Origin: Methanobacteriota archaeon
Lineage (GTDB): Archaea > Thermoplasmatota > Thermoplasmata > SG8-5 > JACRNV01
Assembly (NCBI GenBank): GCA_016214785.1
Contig: JACRNV010000059.1
Coordinates: 17,924 to 81,923, forward strand
Reading direction: 5' to 3'
Length of the DNA stretch: 64,000 bases
The notes beneath the pieces are model-generated. The model worked only from the letters and a program-made list of their open reading frames with translations. It searched no databases and was not told the DNA's origin. The position numbers and the translations under genes are program-made. Positions 31,927 through 41,122 of the stretch are shown here, in pieces (positions within the stretch are counted from its first letter, which is position 1; each line of letters begins with the position of its first letter).

Positions 31927-33600
31927 TTACTGAAATCGTAAATGCTTCATCAACGACTGCACTATAGAAGGGTCGTCCAGCGCCGCCTTCATCTCATCAA
32001 TATCCTTGAACGGCCTCCTGCGCGCAAGCCTCACCGCCCTCTTCCTCCCTATCCCGGGCAGTGCTTCGAGCGCTCCCATGGGAGCATGGTTGACGTCGAG
32101 CGGCGTCTCGACCGCCGTGACGCTTCGCGGCCCGTGCCCGACGACGAGCGCGTCCGAGAACCTGTTCAGCCCCGCCCTGTACGGGAACGAAACGAGGATT
32201 GGATAGGAGCCTATCTGGCGCCCGTACGCGCAGCCGCCGATTTGCACCTCCATATAGACGTCCCTCAGCACCCCTCCACTCGGCGCGACCCTGGCCAGCA
32301 TCGGCGCGTCTATCTCCGTGCGCACGCGCTCCTTGAACCTCCTGAAGGCTCCGTAGTTCCTGTCCCCCGTGGCGAACTCGCGCACGGTGGGCGCGACCTG
32401 CCTGACGTTGATGCGCCGCAGGAGGAGGCCTTCGTCCAGGACGCCCTTCAGGAAGCGGTAGTTCAGGTCGAACGTCCGTGCCGTCTCGCCGTCCAGCCCG
32501 GCGAGAATGTTGATGCCCGGCAGCAGCTTAGGCAGGCCGTTCTCGCCTCGTTCCGTCCCGGCCTCGTTGACGATGCGCACCGCCGCGAGGACCTGCTCCG
32601 GCGTAGCATTAAGATTGTTCGCCACGATGACGGCGGGGTCGGCGCTCTCCATGCCGAAGGCGACGACGTTGCCGGACGTGCAGTGCCCGACCATGATGCG
32701 CGTGGCCTCCGCGGCCTCCTCCGGGTGCTCGGCTATGACCGCCGGGTTGGCGTTGTCCAGGTGCAGGACCTTGAGATTGGGCGCCGCTCTCCGCACGCCT
32801 GCGAGCAGCGCCTTCAAGGCCTTCACGTTTGGCCTCGGCGTCTCGGTCTTTCCCACGCCCCCTGCCATGTAGCTGTAGATGCAGGCCTGCCCGCCGAGGC
32901 GGAAGTTCACCACGCCCTGCGCGTGAAGGGCTTTCACCTCCCCCGCAACTTCCTCGGGCGGCCTGAAGTATGGCTTCCCGTGCGAGGGCTCGATGCAGAA
33001 GCCGCAGCCGCCGGCGAAGTACCGCACACAGCCCCTCGAGGTGTCGAGCTCGGCGATGAGCGGCTCGGGGAAGTCGGGGTGATGGCGCACGGCCTCGGCG
33101 CCAGAGACAGACCAGTCCCTCCATTCCTCGGGCGTGCGCGCCCGGTTCCGGGCCTCGCCATTCTTCATGAAGTCAAAGATGTAGGCATCCAAGTCGCTTC
33201 GAGCAATATGCTGGAAGTGGGATTGTATTTCGTCGCTTTGGCCGAATTTGACACCCGCCCCTCCTATGACGGTCACCCATCTGCGGATGCGCGCGATTTC
33301 GCACAGCTCGCGCGCGCTCGCCGGCATCCCCCGGAGGTACTTTCCGGGCACGACGGCGCCCATGAGGGCCACAAGCAGGTCCGCCTCCGGGATGGCAGTG
33401 CCGCTGCGCAACTGGTCTATCGTGATGTATCTCGCCTCCGCCCCGGCGGCCCTCAGCGCGCCGTAGGCGTACCTGGCCTGCGGCGAGACGTATGGCGGCA
33501 CCCCCAGGGACGCGGGCTCGTCCACGTAGCCGTCCAGCAGCAGCGCGGTCGTCTCTCCCTTCTTTTTATTCAACGCCTGGGCATGCAGCGCGCGGTACAT
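31927..33600 (-). CDS. Radical SAM protein with C-terminal helix-hairpin-helix (COG1031-like)
   Basis: ELDTSRGCVRYFAGGCGFCIEPSHGKPYFR (CxxxxxxxCxxC-like cluster), LPGINILAGLDGET, C-terminal LEALPGIGRKRAVRLARRRPF. Confidence 0.8.
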   Translation of the reverse strand: MYRALHAQALNKKKGETTALLLDGYVDEPASLGVPPYVSPQARYAYGALRAAGAEARYITIDQLRSGTAIPEADLLVALMGAVVPGKYLRGMPASARELCEIARIRRWVTVIGGAGVKFGQSDEIQSHFQHIARSDLDAYIFDFMKNGEARNRARTPEEWRDWSVSGAEAVRHHPDFPEPLIAELDTSRGCVRYFAGGCGFCIEPSHGKPYFRPPEEVAGEVKALHAQGVVNFRLGGQACIYSYMAGGVGKTETPRPNVKALKALLAGVRRAAPNLKVLHLDNANPAVIAEHPEEAAEATRIMVGHCTSGNVVAFGMESADPAVIVANNLNATPEQVLAAVRIVNEAGTERGENGLPKLLPGINILAGLDGETARTFDLNYRFLKGVLDEGLLLRRINVRQVAPTVREFATGDRNYGAFRRFKERVRTEIDAPMLARVAPSGGVLRDVYMEVQIGGCAYGRQIGSYPILVSFPYRAGLNRFSDALVVGHGPRSVTAVETPLDVNHAPMGALEALPGIGRKRAVRLARRRPFKDIDEMKAALDDPSIVQSLMKHLRFQ

Positions 33601-33675
33601 GATGGTTTCGAAACCGCCCGACGTATTTATGCGCTATGCAACTGGTTTAAATATCGCCTTTCCCATCCTCCTTCC

Positions 33676-34818
33676 ATGGCGACCTCCGCCGTCGAGGCGC
33701 TGGAGAGGGCGCGCTCGGCATTCGAGAAGCGATCCTACGAGACGGCCATATCGTTCTGCAAGGAAGCCCTGGCCATGGTGGACACCGACATGTCCGGCAG
33801 CGCCGCCATGCGCCTTAGGGCCGACATCCTCCTCCTCCTTTCGGAGATAAACGACGTCACGGGCCTCTGGGTCGACTCGCTCCTCTATCTCGACGGCGTG
33901 ACGCAGATATCCACTGCACTGAGCGACACGAAGATGCGCGTCGAGTCCCTCATCCGGGCCGGGAACATCATCTCCAAGAAGGGCCGGTGGGACGACGCCC
34001 TGAAGAAGTTCGAGAAGGCCGAGGAGGCGGCAACGAAGAACGGCATCCACAAGCTCCTTGGCAGGGCCCTCATAGGCAAAGGCACGATACTATGGAGGAT
34101 GGGCCGGTACGCCGAGGCCGTTCGCGAGGCCGACCGGACCTCGAAGATAAGCGGCAACATCCACGACCTCCAGCTCGTAGGAACGGCGCATGCGCTAACC
34201 GCGAGCGTGAGGTTCGACCAGGGGAACTACGCCGCTTCCATTGAGGCTAACAGGAAGGCCCTCGAATGCTTCGAGGGCGTCGAGGACGTCTACCAGATTG
34301 CCAGAGTGCTGAACAACATCGGCGAGACCTACAAGGTGATTGGCGACTACCCGCAGGCCATAGAGAACCTGGAGCGCTGCCTCAAGGTGGCCGAGGAGTC
34401 GGGCAACAGGCGCAACATGGGCTACGCGCTCATGAACATCGCCGAGTGCAAGGTCAGGGGCGGGGACCCGGCAGCGGCGAAGAACGCTGCCGCGCGGGCA
34501 GAGTCGGCCTTAGCCGGCATGGAGGACAGGTACGCGCACGCCAACCTCGCGACGGTCTGGGCGCTCATCCACGTCGCGAAGAAGGAGGCGAAGGAGTCGT
34601 TCGCGTACTTCGACCGGGCGCTTGCGCAGATGAAGGAGCTGAAGATACCCTACGACACTGGCGTCGTGCAGCTCGAATACGGCCTGGCCGCGCTGCACTT
34701 CAAGGACAGGGAGAGGGCGAAGGAGATGCTGTCCGACGCCATCGATTCGTTCCAGGACGCTGGCAACAAGGCGATGATGGCGAAGGTGGAGGAGGCATTC
34801 GCGTCTATTAAAGAATAG
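33676..34818 (+). CDS. Tetratricopeptide repeat protein
   Basis: Repeated TPR-like helices (NNIGETYKVIGDYPQAIENLERCLKVAEESG). ATG 33676 is in frame with the longer listed ORF. Confidence 0.82.
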   Translation: MATSAVEALERARSAFEKRSYETAISFCKEALAMVDTDMSGSAAMRLRADILLLLSEINDVTGLWVDSLLYLDGVTQISTALSDTKMRVESLIRAGNIISKKGRWDDALKKFEKAEEAATKNGIHKLLGRALIGKGTILWRMGRYAEAVREADRTSKISGNIHDLQLVGTAHALTASVRFDQGNYAASIEANRKALECFEGVEDVYQIARVLNNIGETYKVIGDYPQAIENLERCLKVAEESGNRRNMGYALMNIAECKVRGGDPAAAKNAAARAESALAGMEDRYAHANLATVWALIHVAKKEAKESFAYFDRALAQMKELKIPYDTGVVQLEYGLAALHFKDRERAKEMLSDAIDSFQDAGNKAMMAKVEEAFASIKE

Positions 34819-34850: not shown

Positions 34851-35303
34851 TTATGTCGTGCGAATCTTGCAATAGCCGACTCTCGCACCCGTTTGTTTCC
34901 AGAAAATATAGAGCTCGTAGTTCGTCCCTGGCAGGGCGGTTATATTGAACACATCGCCAGTTGTGAGTCTGCCGCCACCGTCTCCGTCGATGAATGTCAG
35001 ATTTCCAGCAGTGCCCGGTGTAAGAGTCTCCAACGAACTTGCATTATCTTTCGTATTGTTGATAAAGAGATAGACTTTGTACGAGCTTAATGGCTCATCT
35101 CTGTTTACGGCTACATTTATCTTGCTCATCTCAGCGGAATTGGAGGTCAACATAACATATGGCTCTCCGCCTCCGGCACCGCTCATGTAGCCGCTTACCA
35201 TCACGTACAGTACGGCGGCCAGAACGACAGTTATCGCGACCATAAGGATGGTTGCGATGACCGGCGATACCCCCTCCCGCTCCTTAATCCACTTGAGCCT
35301 CAT
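34851..35303 (-). CDS. Archaeal type IV pilin-like protein
   Basis: REGVSPVIATILMVAITVVLAAVLYVMVSGYMSG class III signal/hydrophobic N-terminus. Confidence 0.85.
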   Translation of the reverse strand: MRLKWIKEREGVSPVIATILMVAITVVLAAVLYVMVSGYMSGAGGGEPYVMLTSNSAEMSKINVAVNRDEPLSSYKVYLFINNTKDNASSLETLTPGTAGNLTFIDGDGGGRLTTGDVFNITALPGTNYELYIFWKQTGARVGYCKIRTT

Positions 35304-35423: not shown

Positions 35424-35873
35424 CTAGGTCGTCCACTTGACGGTACCGACCTTGGCGCCGCTCGCTACCCAGTAGATATTCAACTCGTATGTTGTTCCAG
35501 GTACGCACGTGATGTAAACTTTATCGCCAGTGGTTAGCTTGCCGCCTGTGTCGACGTCAACGAATTTCAGACTGCCACTCGTTCCATCCGCAATCGGGTT
35601 CATCGTGCTTTGGGTCGTTGTGTTCGCCAGCAAGATTAGCTTGTAGCTGGACAGCGCTTCTGCCCTGCTGGGGGCGCTCTCAACTGACCAAGTCGTTGCG
35701 TTGACCGAAGTCGCAGCCGTAAACGTGACGTACGGCTCTCCGCCTCCGCCACCGCTCATGTAGCCGCTTACCATCACGTACAGCACTGCGGCCAACACTA
35801 CGGTAATCGCCACCATCAGGATGGTTGCGATAACTGGCGAGACACCATCGTTCTTTTTCCATATTCTCTTCAT
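35424..35873 (-). CDS. Archaeal type IV pilin-like protein (paralog)
   Basis: KNDGVSPVIATILMVAITVVLAAVLYVMVSGYMSG; ATG at 35873 preceded by AAGGAGG. Confidence 0.85.
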   Translation of the reverse strand: MKRIWKKNDGVSPVIATILMVAITVVLAAVLYVMVSGYMSGGGGGEPYVTFTAATSVNATTWSVESAPSRAEALSSYKLILLANTTTQSTMNPIADGTSGSLKFVDVDTGGKLTTGDKVYITCVPGTTYELNIYWVASGAKVGTVKWTT

Positions 35874-35887
35874 GTTGTGTCCTCCTT

Positions 35888-35938
35888 GTAGGCGTTTGCC
35901 TACTGAATGTGCATGCACTTTCCACCTTTATATATCTT
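35888..35938 (-). promoter_or_regulatory. Pilin promoter/leader: TATA box, palindrome and 5' UTR hairpin
   Basis: Minus strand: ATATATAAAGG, then GTGCATGCAC palindrome (35909-35918), then GTAGGC-AAAC-GCCTAC hairpin just before the AAGGAGG ribosome-binding site. Confidence 0.5.
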
Positions 35939-35990: not shown

Positions 35991-36734
35991 TCAATCGCTG
36001 GGCACGAACCCCTTGTGCGTTATCTTCACGGGGATTATGCCGGCCATCTCCGGGTGGTTGCGCACTTTCCTGATTATGAGGTTCCTGGAGAAGTCCATGC
36101 CGCTGCGCAGCCTCTCTATCTCCAGGACGATGTCGACGACCTCCTCTATGCCGCTCTCGGTGCGCGAATCGTAGACGCCCTGCAGCATCGTCACGAGCGC
36201 GAGGCTCTTCGTGTGCTGGGAGTGCGCCCTCGTCGTGCGTAGGGCGGAGAGCACGCCGGCGTGGTCGTAGTACTCGAGGAAGAAGTCGAGCGAGTCCAGG
36301 ACGAGCCGATACGGCGGCTGGAGCTTCGAGACCTCGTACGTGAGCATGGTGAGGAAGTTCACCCTCTCATCGGTGATGCTCGCAGCCCCGTCCGAGCGCA
36401 TGATGTCGCGCATCTTGAGCCCCTCGAGCCTGTACTTGCTGACCTCGAGCTTCTTGGCCAGCACGCTCTCGTAGTAGAGGCTGCCTATGTTGACAATTCG
36501 TGGCTCGACCTTGGTGCCGAGGCGCTTCATCGTGTCCATGACGTCCTCGTCCCTCTCCGACGTGGCGAAGTACACGACGTTCTCGCCCTCGGAGGCCGCG
36601 GCCGCGAACTGCTTTGCGAAGAGGTCTATGCCGGTGCCAGGCGTCCCGCATATCAGGACCGTGCCCCCGCGCGGGAGGCCTCCCTCGAGCGCCTTGTCCA
36701 GTATGGCCACTCCGGTCTTGGCGTACTCGGCCAT
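35991..36734 (-). CDS. KaiC/RecA-like ATPase-fold protein with degenerate Walker A
   Basis: GVAILDKALEGGLPRGGTVLICGTPGTGIDLFAKQF (I in place of the P-loop K); RLVLDSLDFFLEYY. Confidence 0.75.
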   Translation of the reverse strand: MAEYAKTGVAILDKALEGGLPRGGTVLICGTPGTGIDLFAKQFAAAASEGENVVYFATSERDEDVMDTMKRLGTKVEPRIVNIGSLYYESVLAKKLEVSKYRLEGLKMRDIMRSDGAASITDERVNFLTMLTYEVSKLQPPYRLVLDSLDFFLEYYDHAGVLSALRTTRAHSQHTKSLALVTMLQGVYDSRTESGIEEVVDIVLEIERLRSGMDFSRNLIIRKVRNHPEMAGIIPVKITHKGFVPSD

Positions 36735-36735
36735 C

Positions 36736-37314
36736 TCAGCCCTCCCCCTTGCCGCTCATGGATATGACGTTCTCGCAGATGAGGCTCATCATCCCCTTCA
36801 GCTCCTCGGAGCTGAAGTCCTCCATCGAGAAGATGATCGTGTAGGCGTTCTTGGCCCTCAGGCTGTTGATGAGGATGTGGAAGAACTCGCTCAGGATCTT
36901 GGTGTTGTTGTGGATGGCCAGCGAGTTGATGGCGTCGAGGATGACGACGCTGTCCTTCCCCTTGTTCTTGCGCATGAGGTACTCGACCTTGAGCATGATG
37001 TTCTCGAGCATCGTCGGGCTCTCGACGAAGTAGACGTTGTCCGGGCGCGCAACGGCTCCGCCCATGACCTGCGAGACGCAGTCTATGAAGTGGATGCGCT
37101 TCATGTCAATCTCGAGGAGCGTGAGAACGTCGATGATGGAGTTCGAGGGCATCTGCGAGGTGATGTATATGGTCTCTAGGTTCTTCTTCGACGCGAAGAT
37201 GTCCACGACGCCCCGTATCGCATCGAAATAAGATTCGGTCGTGAAGCCTATCGAGACCGCCGAGGGCATCGGCATCTCTACGAGCACGTCCGCGAGCTCT
37301 GTGGGGGTCATCAT
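36736..37314 (-). CDS. KaiC/RecA-like fold protein lacking the P-loop region
   Basis: DSVVILDAINSLAIHNNTKILSEFFHILINSLRAKNAYTIIFSMED resembles the Walker B half of KaiC-like proteins; no Walker A in N-terminus. Confidence 0.6.
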   Translation of the reverse strand: MMTPTELADVLVEMPMPSAVSIGFTTESYFDAIRGVVDIFASKKNLETIYITSQMPSNSIIDVLTLLEIDMKRIHFIDCVSQVMGGAVARPDNVYFVESPTMLENIMLKVEYLMRKNKGKDSVVILDAINSLAIHNNTKILSEFFHILINSLRAKNAYTIIFSMEDFSSEELKGMMSLICENVISMSGKGEG

Positions 37315-37316
37315 TG

Positions 37317-38096
37317 CTATCCGCCTCCGCTCGACACGCTTCCGCCCTTGAGTAGCGGCACGAGAAGCACGCCACACGGTGTGAGGTCCAGCACGTACTT
37401 GGCCCTGGAGTGCTGCGTGCCCCTCATCTTCACGACCTGCAGGGTCCTGAGCAGGTCGCCCCTGCGCTCCAGGTTGCCCATCAGTACTATGCCGTCGGCG
37501 ATGGCCTCTTCCACGCCATAGAGGGAATAGCGCTCGGCAGTCGGAGAAATCTCCGATACGAGTATGGTCGTGCACCCCAGCTCCGACAGCGTCTTGCCGA
37601 GCTTGAGTATGAACTCGCGGATCTTCTCCTCGGTCTTCAGCCTGTAGCAGACCGAGGTGATGGAGTCTATGACGAGCCTCTTGATGTCGAGCTCCTTGAC
37701 GATGCTGCCGATGGCCTTCACGAGCGTGTCGACGTCCTCGAGCGTGAACTCGACGGTCACGAGCCCGAGCTTGTTGTAGATGACGGGCATGTCAACGAAG
37801 ACGAGCTTCCCCTTTTTGATGAGGGAGTCGTCGAAGAACTCGTACGGGATGATGTTCTCCAGCAGCTTCACGGACGCCTCCGTCACCGATATGAAGAGGC
37901 AGTTCTCGCCGTCGATGGCGCCGTGCACGAGGTACTCGAGGCTGATGGAAGTCTTGCCCGTGCCGCAGCTCCCGGTGAAGAGGACGGTGTTGCCGCGCGG
38001 GATCCCTCCATTGAGGATGTTGTCCAGCCCCTCGACGCCCGTGACGCACCTGTTGCGCTCTTCCCCTGCTCTCCGCACAATGGGCTTCGTAACCAT
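37317..38096 (-). CDS. KaiC-like ATPase with intact Walker A
   Basis: TGVEGLDNILNGGIPRGNTVLFTGSCGTGKTSISLEYLVHGA; KRLVIDSITSVCY. Confidence 0.82.
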   Translation of the reverse strand: MVTKPIVRRAGEERNRCVTGVEGLDNILNGGIPRGNTVLFTGSCGTGKTSISLEYLVHGAIDGENCLFISVTEASVKLLENIIPYEFFDDSLIKKGKLVFVDMPVIYNKLGLVTVEFTLEDVDTLVKAIGSIVKELDIKRLVIDSITSVCYRLKTEEKIREFILKLGKTLSELGCTTILVSEISPTAERYSLYGVEEAIADGIVLMGNLERRGDLLRTLQVVKMRGTQHSRAKYVLDLTPCGVLLVPLLKGGSVSSGGG

Positions 38097-38152
38097 AGTC
38101 AGCACGGCAATGATTCGCACTCTATAAACCCTTTCGGTCTGGACTGAAAGGC

Positions 38153-38182: not shown

Positions 38183-41122
38183 ATGCCTTCGGACGATAGC
38201 AGGGCGCTCGACTTCGCCGCCATCGAGGCGAGGTGGCAGGGGCGCTGGTACGGCGACAGGGTATTCGACTCCGAGCCCGTCGAGGGGGCGCCAAAGTACT
38301 TCATCATCTTCGCCTACCCGGGGACGAGCGGCTATCTTCACGTCGGGCACATGCGCGCCTACACCTACACGGACATCATGGCGCGGTTCATGCGCATGAA
38401 GGGTTTCAACGTCCTCTTCCCGGTGGGCGCGCACGCCACCGGCAACGTTTCCATCACGCCGGCGAAGAAGGTCGAGCGCGGGGACACGGAGACGCTGGCT
38501 TACTTCCGCGCGAACGGCTGCACGGAGGATGAGTTGAGGAAGCTCTCCGACCCGCTCGAGGTCGTGCGATTCTTCTCGAAGGTTTACGTCGACGATTACT
38601 GGAAGAGGTTCGGCTTCTCGGCGGACTTCCGCAGGTTCTGCACGACGATAGACCCGGGCTACATGAGGTTCATAGAGTGGCAGTTCCTCAAGCTCAAGGA
38701 GAGGGGGTTGCTCTTCCAGAAGCCGTACATGGGGACGGCGTGCCTGAAATGCGGGCCCGTCGCCGTCGACCCGTCGGAGACTGACATCTCGTCGGGCGGC
38801 AACGCCGAAAAGCAGGAGTACACCCTTTTGAAATGCAGGAGCGGCGACCGGTACCTGGTCGCCGCGACGCTTCGCCCGGAGACGGTCTACGGCCAGACGA
38901 ACTTCTGGGCGAACCCCGGCACCGAATATGTTGAAATCGATGTCGAGGGTGAGAAATGGGTCGTCAGCCCCGAGTGCGCGGAGAAGCTCTCCCACCAGAT
39001 AGATGGCGTCAGAATCACGGGGAATATCCCAGGTCGCGCACTCATCGGGACGGGGTGCAAGCCCCCCGTCATAGACCGCGAGATTCTCGTGCTGCCGGCG
39101 TCGTTCTGCGACCCGAACGTCGGCACGGGACTGGTCACGAGCGTGCCGTCGGACGCGCCGTACGATTGGATAGCGCTCAGGGAGCTTCAGGAGGACGAGG
39201 CGCGGTGCAAATCCCTCGGCCTCGACCCCGCGCAGGTCAGAGCCATCGAGGCAATCCCCATAATCAGGACGCCGGGCTTCGGGCCGCTCCCGGCGAAGGA
39301 GATATGCGAAAGGATGGGCATCTCCAAGCTCGGCGACCCCAGGCTGGAGGAGGCGACGAAGGAGATTTACAGCACCGGCTTCCACACCGGCGTGATGAAC
39401 GACCTCTGCGGCGAGTTCGCCGGCCTGAACGTCTCGAAGGCCAAGGACAGGATGAAGGCGGCGATGTTCGACAGGGGCGAGGCCGCGCTCTTCTACGACA
39501 TGTCCGAACCTGTGACGTGCCGCTGCGGCGGCAAGGTCATAGTAAAAAAGATCCCCGACCAGTGGTTCATCGACTACGGCAACCGTGAGATCACCGACCT
39601 CTCGAAGGAGCACGCCGCATCGATGCGCATAATGCCGCCAGAATACCACGCAAACCTCCCCGGAATCCTGGAGTGGTTCCAGGAGAGGTCGTGCGCGCGC
39701 CTGGGGAACTGGCTCGGGACGCCGCTGCCGTTCGACAGGCGCTGGATTGTCGAGGCGATATCCGATTCGACGCTCTATCCGGCATATTACCTGATATCGA
39801 AGTACGTCACCTCCGGCGAGCTCAGGCCGGAGGAAATGGACGAATCCTTCTTCGATTACATATTCTTGGACAAGGGCACACAAGCGGATCGCGATGGTGT
39901 AAGTGTAAGAGCAGAAATAGTGACACGGAAATATCGCAAAGGCAAATGGGAACACATCCCTAAAATTGCAGATAGGATAAGGCGCGACGTAGAATACTGG
40001 TACCCCCTCGACGTCAATCTCGGAGGCAAGGAGCACATGACCGTGCACTTCCCCGTCTTCCTGATGAACCACGTCGCAATCCTGCCGGTGAAGATGTGGC
40101 CCAAGGGCATACTGGTCAACTGGTACATCGTCATGAAGGGCGGCAAAATTTCCAAGTCCAAGGGCGGCGCGGAGCCCATCCCGGACGCGGTGAAGCTCTA
40201 CTCCGTCGACGGCATGCGCCTCTACTACGCGCACTCGGCCAGCCCGTTCGTCGACGTGGAATGGGACGACGGCATCGTGCGCGGCTACAGGCAGCGCGTC
40301 GAGAGGATATACTGGCAATATCTGGATGCAATCGCAGCTATAAGAGATGCATCGCCACCGGAGAGCCGAATGGACCGGTGGCTCGAGGCGGAGTTTACAA
40401 GCTCTATCGACCGCATGCAGTCTTTCATGGACGCATTCGACCTCCGCGCAGCAGCCGGCGAAATATTCTTCACAATCCCCGACAGGATACGCTGGTACGA
40501 GAGGCGCGGCGGCCAGGGCGCGGCGATGAAGCGCATCCTTCCGCTCTGGGCGCAGGCCATGGCCCCGTTCGTCCCGCACGTTGCCGAGGAGCTGTGGGAG
40601 AGGCTCGGGCACAAGGATTTCGTCTCGACATCTCTGTACCCGGCGGAGGCCCCTGAAACTGATAGGGAGGTGGCCGCCGAGGAGGATTACATCGTCCGGC
40701 TCATGGGCGACCTCGCGCAGGTGCGCAAGGTCACGGGCATCGAGAAGGGGAAAGTGTGGCTCTACGTCGCCGAGGAATGGAAATGCGAGGTGATGGCGAA
40801 GGTCTCCGGGCTCCATGCGTCGGGCACGCGCGACACCTCCGGCCTCATCAAGGCCGTGATGCAGATGCCGTCCGCGAAGGCGCACGCCAAGGAGGCGGCG
40901 GCGTTCGTGCAGAAGGCTGCCAAGGACATCGCCGCCGGGCAGGCGCCCTCGCCGCCGAAAGACGAGCACGCGCTCCTCTCAGACAGCACCCAGTTCCTCT
41001 CCCGCGAGACGGGCTTCGAGATTGTCGTTCAGAAGGCCGGCGAGAAGGGCATCCACGACCCGAAGGGCAAGGCCAGAGCAGCAGCGCCGGGAAGGCCGGC
41101 GATATACGCCGAAGCGATTTAG
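38183..41122 (+). CDS. leuS: Leucyl-tRNA synthetase (archaeal type)
   Basis: FAYPGTSGYLHVGHMRAYT (HIGH region), WYPLDVNLGGKEHM, MKGGKISKSKGG (KMSKS). Confidence 0.93.
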   Translation: MPSDDSRALDFAAIEARWQGRWYGDRVFDSEPVEGAPKYFIIFAYPGTSGYLHVGHMRAYTYTDIMARFMRMKGFNVLFPVGAHATGNVSITPAKKVERGDTETLAYFRANGCTEDELRKLSDPLEVVRFFSKVYVDDYWKRFGFSADFRRFCTTIDPGYMRFIEWQFLKLKERGLLFQKPYMGTACLKCGPVAVDPSETDISSGGNAEKQEYTLLKCRSGDRYLVAATLRPETVYGQTNFWANPGTEYVEIDVEGEKWVVSPECAEKLSHQIDGVRITGNIPGRALIGTGCKPPVIDREILVLPASFCDPNVGTGLVTSVPSDAPYDWIALRELQEDEARCKSLGLDPAQVRAIEAIPIIRTPGFGPLPAKEICERMGISKLGDPRLEEATKEIYSTGFHTGVMNDLCGEFAGLNVSKAKDRMKAAMFDRGEAALFYDMSEPVTCRCGGKVIVKKIPDQWFIDYGNREITDLSKEHAASMRIMPPEYHANLPGILEWFQERSCARLGNWLGTPLPFDRRWIVEAISDSTLYPAYYLISKYVTSGELRPEEMDESFFDYIFLDKGTQADRDGVSVRAEIVTRKYRKGKWEHIPKIADRIRRDVEYWYPLDVNLGGKEHMTVHFPVFLMNHVAILPVKMWPKGILVNWYIVMKGGKISKSKGGAEPIPDAVKLYSVDGMRLYYAHSASPFVDVEWDDGIVRGYRQRVERIYWQYLDAIAAIRDASPPESRMDRWLEAEFTSSIDRMQSFMDAFDLRAAAGEIFFTIPDRIRWYERRGGQGAAMKRILPLWAQAMAPFVPHVAEELWERLGHKDFVSTSLYPAEAPETDREVAAEEDYIVRLMGDLAQVRKVTGIEKGKVWLYVAEEWKCEVMAKVSGLHASGTRDTSGLIKAVMQMPSAKAHAKEAAAFVQKAAKDIAAGQAPSPPKDEHALLSDSTQFLSRETGFEIVVQKAGEKGIHDPKGKARAAAPGRPAIYAEAI

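Follow-up and report, generated by a model that had tools for sequence, protein, structure and literature searches.

The window analyzed here, 64,000 nucleotides of an archaeal contig of the phylum Thermoplasmatota (JACRNV010000059.1), carries on its minus strand three consecutive genes for an intact KaiC-like ATPase, a predicted KaiC-fold protein without a P-loop, and a KaiC homolog with a degenerate P-loop, and the next two genes on the same strand encode type IV pilins. Our best reading of this triad, at a probability of roughly 0.45, is an ATP-dependent, hetero-oligomeric KaiC-type switch that acts on type IV pili. Its main supports are a gene order shared across the phylum, the tight spacing of the genes, the P-loop and finger states of genes 1 and 3, the invariant residues of gene 2, the KaiC/FlaH-like predicted folds, and the frequency with which a pilin lies downstream; the portions of two earlier papers considered here also supply precedents (PMC4858521, PMC13286277).

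Architecture and conservation of the KaiC-type triad

Gene 1 (37317..38096, minus strand; 259 aa) has the Walker A motif GSCGTGKTS and passes the PF06745 profile with 187.4 bits (E 3e-55; curated cut-off 26.6). The Walker A lysine of its P-loop, Lys48, is kept in 98/98 phylum-wide orthologs that have a residue at this position, and its C-terminal trans finger contains Lys223/Arg225 (KMRGT). The protein can be aligned to KaiC, and the Lys-x-Arg of the C-terminal hairpin then falls on the KLRGT/KMRG segment of KaiC. In KaiC, this Lys-x-Arg hairpin segment contacts the nucleotide of the adjoining subunit.

Gene 3 (35991..36734, minus strand; 247 aa) is likewise a KaiC homolog that passes PF06745 (89.1 bits, E 4e-25), and its predicted model (pLDDT 83) is nearest to KaiC (E 4e-15) and FlaH (E 7e-13). 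Its P-loop reads GTPGTGIDL, without the lysine. Among phylum-wide sequences, the Walker A lysine is absent from gene 3 in 74/78, and the Mg-coordinating Thr/Ser position is Asp or Glu in 66/78. The four exceptions, from families f34 and f40, have the lysine but carry Glu at the Thr/Ser position; since the acidic residue is present even where the lysine remains, the alignment suggests that the acidic substitution preceded the loss of the lysine. The KaiC-type trans finger, in contrast to the P-loop, is retained, with Lys223/Arg225 in the window protein, Lys in 71 of 76 sequences and Arg or Lys in 73 of 76. A subunit with a purely trans role would be expected to lose its own P-loop lysine but keep the finger lysine, as gene 3 does, and this pattern strengthens the idea of a hetero-oligomer. 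Family f39 (L191, L194, L195, L196) has a strongly diverged triad, in which gene 1 keeps its P-loop with an altered KMRGT finger segment, and gene 3 has neither the lysine nor the finger.

Gene 2 (36736..37314, minus strand; 192 aa) has no Walker A motif and no C-terminal finger, as the protein stops short of the finger hairpin. Its match to PF06745 (24.5 bits, profile positions 45-187) lies under the curated cut-off of 26.6. An AlphaFold2 model built from the window protein and seven relatives (pLDDT 77, pTM 0.79) has a RecA-type alternating fold, in which strand 1 and helix 1 are present and the P-loop between them is replaced. When this model was compared with the PDB by Foldseek, the best matches were FlaH/ArlH (4yds, E 3e-6, probability 1.0), the KaiC CI domain, and PH0284 (TM 0.61). 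A search with the gene 2 sequence against all PDB sequences returned nothing meaningful, so only the fold comparison gave a relation, and an hhalign comparison of gene 2 with gene 3 was not significant. Kinship with solved structures and with gene 3 thus rests on the fold and the sub-threshold Pfam match, from which gene 2 is predicted to be related to the KaiC family. The initial annotation had described gene 2 as RecA-like with a recognizable second half; the RecA-type fold is borne out by the model, but the likeness extends beyond the second half to strand 1 and helix 1. Despite the missing P-loop, eight residues of gene 2 are invariant (Y29, D78, E98, L103, E104, D127, N136 and F144). Its nearest relative in the contig collection, at 60% identity, comes from a "Thermoplasmata archaeon" (JAUSPR010000180.1).

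The states of the three P-loops given in the initial annotation were thus confirmed from the sequence and PF06745, as was the statement that the genes abut, with gaps of 2 nt between genes 1 and 2 and 1 nt between genes 2 and 3. A putative TATA-like box, TTTATAGA (38121..38128, minus strand), was read from the sequence with its center about 28 nt before the ATG of gene 1, a position that suggests a leaderless triad mRNA. Divergent from the triad, at 38183-41122, lies a leucyl-tRNA-synthetase-like gene with class I synthetase and anticodon domains. KaiC-like genes as such are not rare in this genome, which has about 30 KaiC-like matches; the PF06745 matches number 36, including several KaiC genes with two domains and some that cluster locally on contigs C19, C26 and C35. 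A search of viral contigs with gene 1 gave a single partial match, while among plasmids gene 2 found no match and gene 3 matched only generic bacterial KaiC; taken together, these searches give no sign of a mobile origin.

In the class Thermoplasmata, 158 of 250 genomes have gene 2; in a phylum-wide sample of 116 genomes, 63 do. We compared 68 loci of the class, 61 of them from 27 families found by whole-genome search and seven from a contig collection that possibly overlaps with these. Gene 2 has gene 1 as its immediate upstream neighbor at all 68 loci and gene 3 as its immediate downstream neighbor at 50; the other 18 show genes 1 and 2 alone. Gene 3 is therefore dispensable, with a dyad of genes 1 and 2 as the core, and its absence from these loci counts against the switch reading. 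In the other classes of the phylum, genes 1 and 2 are adjacent at 30 loci, and gene 3 follows in the same order at 27 of these; at a few of them, gene 3 is as much as ~1 kb away from gene 2. Four loci (L168, L169, L188 and L197) deviate from the usual triad pattern. L188 (6485-14372; G329, family f44) holds an array of four gene-2-like proteins around a KaiC-containing protein of 1064 aa, along with another KaiC gene. Both checks put forward in the initial annotation, namely co-occurrence of the three genes in relatives and folding of gene 2 as a RecA domain, gave positive outcomes: the gene order is conserved phylum-wide, and a KaiC/FlaH-like fold is predicted for gene 2. A chance origin of the gene order was rejected, as the order and the P-loop states recur phylum-wide.

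Linkage to type IV pilins and the pilin leader hairpin

The two genes that follow the triad on the same strand had been annotated as type IV pilins, and both pass the PF07790 profile (cut-off 25.2 bits; E ~2e-9 each) and have the pilin N-terminal domain with its GVSPVIATILMVAI segment. Pilin 1 (MKRIWKKNDGVSPVIATILMVAI...; 35424..35873, minus strand) scores 38.7 bits, and pilin 2 (34851..35303, minus strand) 38.5 bits. Convergent with the pilins is a TPR-repeat protein (PF13424, E 8e-33) that occupies the C-terminal part of a listed open reading frame (31942-34818, plus strand), whose given start lies far upstream of that of the likely true gene.

In Thermoplasmata, a same-strand pilin is found at most 1.5 kb downstream at 34 of the 61 loci, in 16 of the 27 families. 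By our own estimate, a pilin neighbor would be expected by chance at ~0.2% of loci, given the 1-6 PF07790 matches per ~2 Mb in most genomes with pilins, and the observed linkage is thus far beyond chance. At loci without gene 3, gene 2 is often immediately followed by the pilin, and three families from other classes (L168, L172, L179) likewise have a downstream pilin. Across the 250 genomes, 152 have both gene 2 and a PF07790 pilin, 6 gene 2 only, 41 a pilin only, and 51 neither (Fisher p 4e-21, a statistic that ignores phylogeny). The link to surface filaments proposed in the initial annotation is supported both by this linkage and by the presence of pilins in 152 of 158 gene-2 genomes. In family f8, G124 (locus L202) is the sole sampled genome with PF07790 pilins and also the sole one with a match to gene 2, a weak one (E 1.5e-14). 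The pilin N-terminal domain was also seen on open frames of at least 2000 residues (G000:C10, G012:C28, G063:C78 and others), possibly encoding giant pilin-anchored surface proteins.

The link between triad and pilins is strong but not universal. Families f11, f12, f15 and others hold the triad away from pilins, a distribution that speaks against the switch reading, as do the disregard of phylogeny in the co-occurrence statistics and the insignificant alignment of gene 2 with gene 3. With no adjoining pilin in 11 of 27 class families or at most loci of other classes, the triad could instead be part of a general KaiC signaling hub of Thermoplasmatota, for which pilins would be one of several outputs. 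The ~30 KaiC-like matches in this genome fit such a role, and a hub function for KaiC has been proposed in the literature (cited in the part of PMC5847659 considered here). We nevertheless hold a hub to be rather unlikely in view of the 34 linked loci in 16 families and of the near-constant presence of pilins in genomes with gene 2.

Alternatively, the triad may work with the ATPase that assembles the pilus, in the manner of ArlH, so that its target would be a T2SSE-type motor and not the expression of pilins. The models of genes 2 and 3 do match FlaH/ArlH, and a T2SSE ATPase was found in 17/17 genomes tested. In this genome, however, the T2SSE-type ATPase matches lie on contigs C1 and C10, whereas the triad lies on C50, so that there is no linkage between the two; this separation also weighs against the switch reading. 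Moreover, gene 1 scores only 35.6 bits and gene 3 only 51.1 bits against the NCBIfam ArlH cut-off of 215 bits, with no match for gene 2. Such a motor partner is therefore unlikely, more so than a hub.

A further feature of the locus is a hairpin in the leader of pilin 1 (GUAGGC-AAAC-GCCUAC, 6 bp; 35888..35903, minus strand), identified by its fold (-9.9 kcal/mol, z -5.1), a covariance-model match (R1) and covariation. The Shine-Dalgarno sequence AGGAGG (35881..35886, minus strand) begins two nucleotides past the hairpin, and a putative TATA-like box, TATATAAA (35927..35934, minus strand), is centered 27 nt before it. All 34 triad-linked pilins have such a hairpin, with a stem of 5-10 bp adjoining AGGAGGACA and a loop that is often GNRA-like or A-rich, directly before the Shine-Dalgarno sequence, as does L204 (1501-1527); in shuffled upstream sequence, a stem of 5 bp or more arises at the same place in ~24%. 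When 57 distinct sequences were aligned with a covariance model, 99.2% of cells paired (81.8% when shuffled) and double changes occurred in 4/5 pairs, values that are biased toward the structure to which the model was fitted. MAFFT alignments of the leaders placed the stem arms wrongly and were left out of the covariation analysis. The best TATA-like box is centered 24-32 nt before the hairpin in 24 of the 34 linked pilins, a spacing from which the pilin mRNA 5' end is predicted to lie usually at the hairpin. Pilin 1 is likewise predicted to have its own mRNA, separate from that of the triad and starting at the hairpin.

Confident hits of this hairpin precede pilins only. The only two strong matches in this genome both precede pilins, and the one on contig C24 does not belong to the triad. 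Among the 29 further loci returned by a class-wide search (L210-L238), the match lies before a pilin start at 28 (including L219, on inspection); the remaining locus, L227, ends at a contig edge. Three loci of family f6 that were inspected (E ~1e-5 to 2e-5) all precede pilins, and weaker matches (E ~4e-5 to 1e-3; f8, f18 and others) were judged on inspection to be due to chance. Confident hairpins occur in 67 genomes; every one of these has pilins, and gene 2 is present in 63. A search of Rfam gave no match for the hairpin, a scan for sigma-70 promoters and terminators stayed at chance level, and a limited check of the literature turned up no description of the element. A simple reading is that of a 5' element that may protect abundant pilin mRNAs or tune their translation, and a functional tie to the KaiC module is possible.

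It could be proposed from the 34/34 hairpins beside the Shine-Dalgarno sequence, and from the frequency of gene 2 among hairpin genomes, that the triad acts post-transcriptionally through the hairpin, for example by binding it. We regard this as highly improbable, as genes 1-3 have no known RNA-binding motif, the hairpin also precedes pilins away from the triad (C24 here, and the f6 genomes), and a generic mRNA-stabilizing role explains it equally well. Decay of genes 2 and 3 into paralogs without function, as the loss of canonical ATPase motifs might suggest, has a vanishingly small probability and is refuted by their phylum-wide fixed order and many invariant residues.

A candidate switch and its relation to known KaiC systems

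Returning to the KaiC-type switch for type IV pili, we postulate that the three genes would form a dedicated regulatory module, with a KaiC-type ATPase at its core, that controls type IV pilus production. From the P-loop and finger states of the three proteins, we infer that gene 1 provides the nucleotide site, that gene 3 acts in trans only, and that gene 2 is an adaptor. Gene 1 would bind ATP, and probably hydrolyze it, within a full or partial ring of the KaiC type. Gene 3, as a pseudo-ATPase with no normal ATP binding, would sit beside gene 1 and lend its Lys/Arg finger to the nucleotide of gene 1, while gene 2, the constant companion of gene 1, would serve as an adaptor of KaiC fold that holds no nucleotide. 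A change of ATP state would then alter the assembly and thereby act on the pilins or on the motor that assembles them, much as ArlH does in the archaellum. The sequences, predicted folds, gene order, P-loop and finger states and pilin linkage are what the analysis establishes; complex formation, its stoichiometry, its dependence on ATP and the pilus as its output are what we infer here. It is improbable, in our judgment, that a phylum-wide hetero-oligomeric KaiC ring of ATP-binding subunit, finger-only pseudo-ATPase and adaptor controls pilin output via the mRNA 5' hairpin.

Several known systems share features with the triad. ArlH/FlaH shares its fold with genes 2 and 3 (FlaH being the best Foldseek match of gene 2), and like the triad it is tied to a filament of the type IV pilus kind and has a proposed switch role; the triad, however, is not beside arlI/arlJ, two of its three subunits lack a usable P-loop, and its identity with ArlH was rejected on the cut-off given above. 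The CI domain of cyanobacterial KaiC has in common with gene 1 the fold, Walker A and B motifs, and the trans Lys/Arg finger, whereas here there is a single domain, with 114 bits against the 546-bit cut-off of clock KaiC (TIGR02655), on which the triad was rejected as clock KaiC. Gene 3 passes DUF7504 (PF24336; 30.0 bits, cut-off 27), and gene 2 comes just below the cut-off for DUF7090 (PF23365; 26.2 bits, cut-off 27). Both families are found in Haloferax, one of our controls, which offers a lead to a possible haloarchaeal counterpart of the triad. For CirA, the KaiC homolog of Haloferax volcanii, we know of no triad. CirA affects motility as a single KaiC protein, and both ArlH and CirA are described as KaiC homologs acting on motility in the portion of PMC13286277 considered here.

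KaiC ATPases at archaeal type IV pilus loci were noted in 2016 (arCOG01171, 01174 and 01175), one of them with a predicted partner, a DEATH-like helical protein (PMC4858521). These ATPases resemble the triad in lying beside pilus genes, sometimes with such a partner, but the part of that paper considered here describes no triad with two inactivated KaiC subunits. Inactivated KaiC domains (iKaiC/DUF835) are likewise known from archaeal signaling, fused to receiver or PAS domains (part of PMC5847659). Like genes 2 and 3, they are KaiC-fold domains without a working ATPase, and gene 2 has a weak match to DUF835 (E 2e-3); the inactivated domains of the triad differ in standing alone, in an operon with an active KaiC. 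In a limited check of the literature, we found no description of a triad with two inactivated KaiC subunits. The suggestion of an undescribed module is only partly right, as the literature already contains both KaiC ATPases beside type IV pilus loci and KaiC domains that have been inactivated.

The hairpin is a separate candidate in its own right, as a structured 5' element of the mRNA whose stem covaries and which accompanies a single gene family. To our knowledge, little is known about the regulation of type IV pili in archaea, and we know of no assigned task for most KaiC-like proteins. A conserved, pilin-linked operon of one active and two inactivated KaiC subunits makes the proposed role of KaiC as an archaeal switch directly testable, and it yields a concrete prediction of which residues act in cis and which in trans. 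The conservation of the triad and its linkage to pilins point to a dedicated candidate switch for surface filaments.
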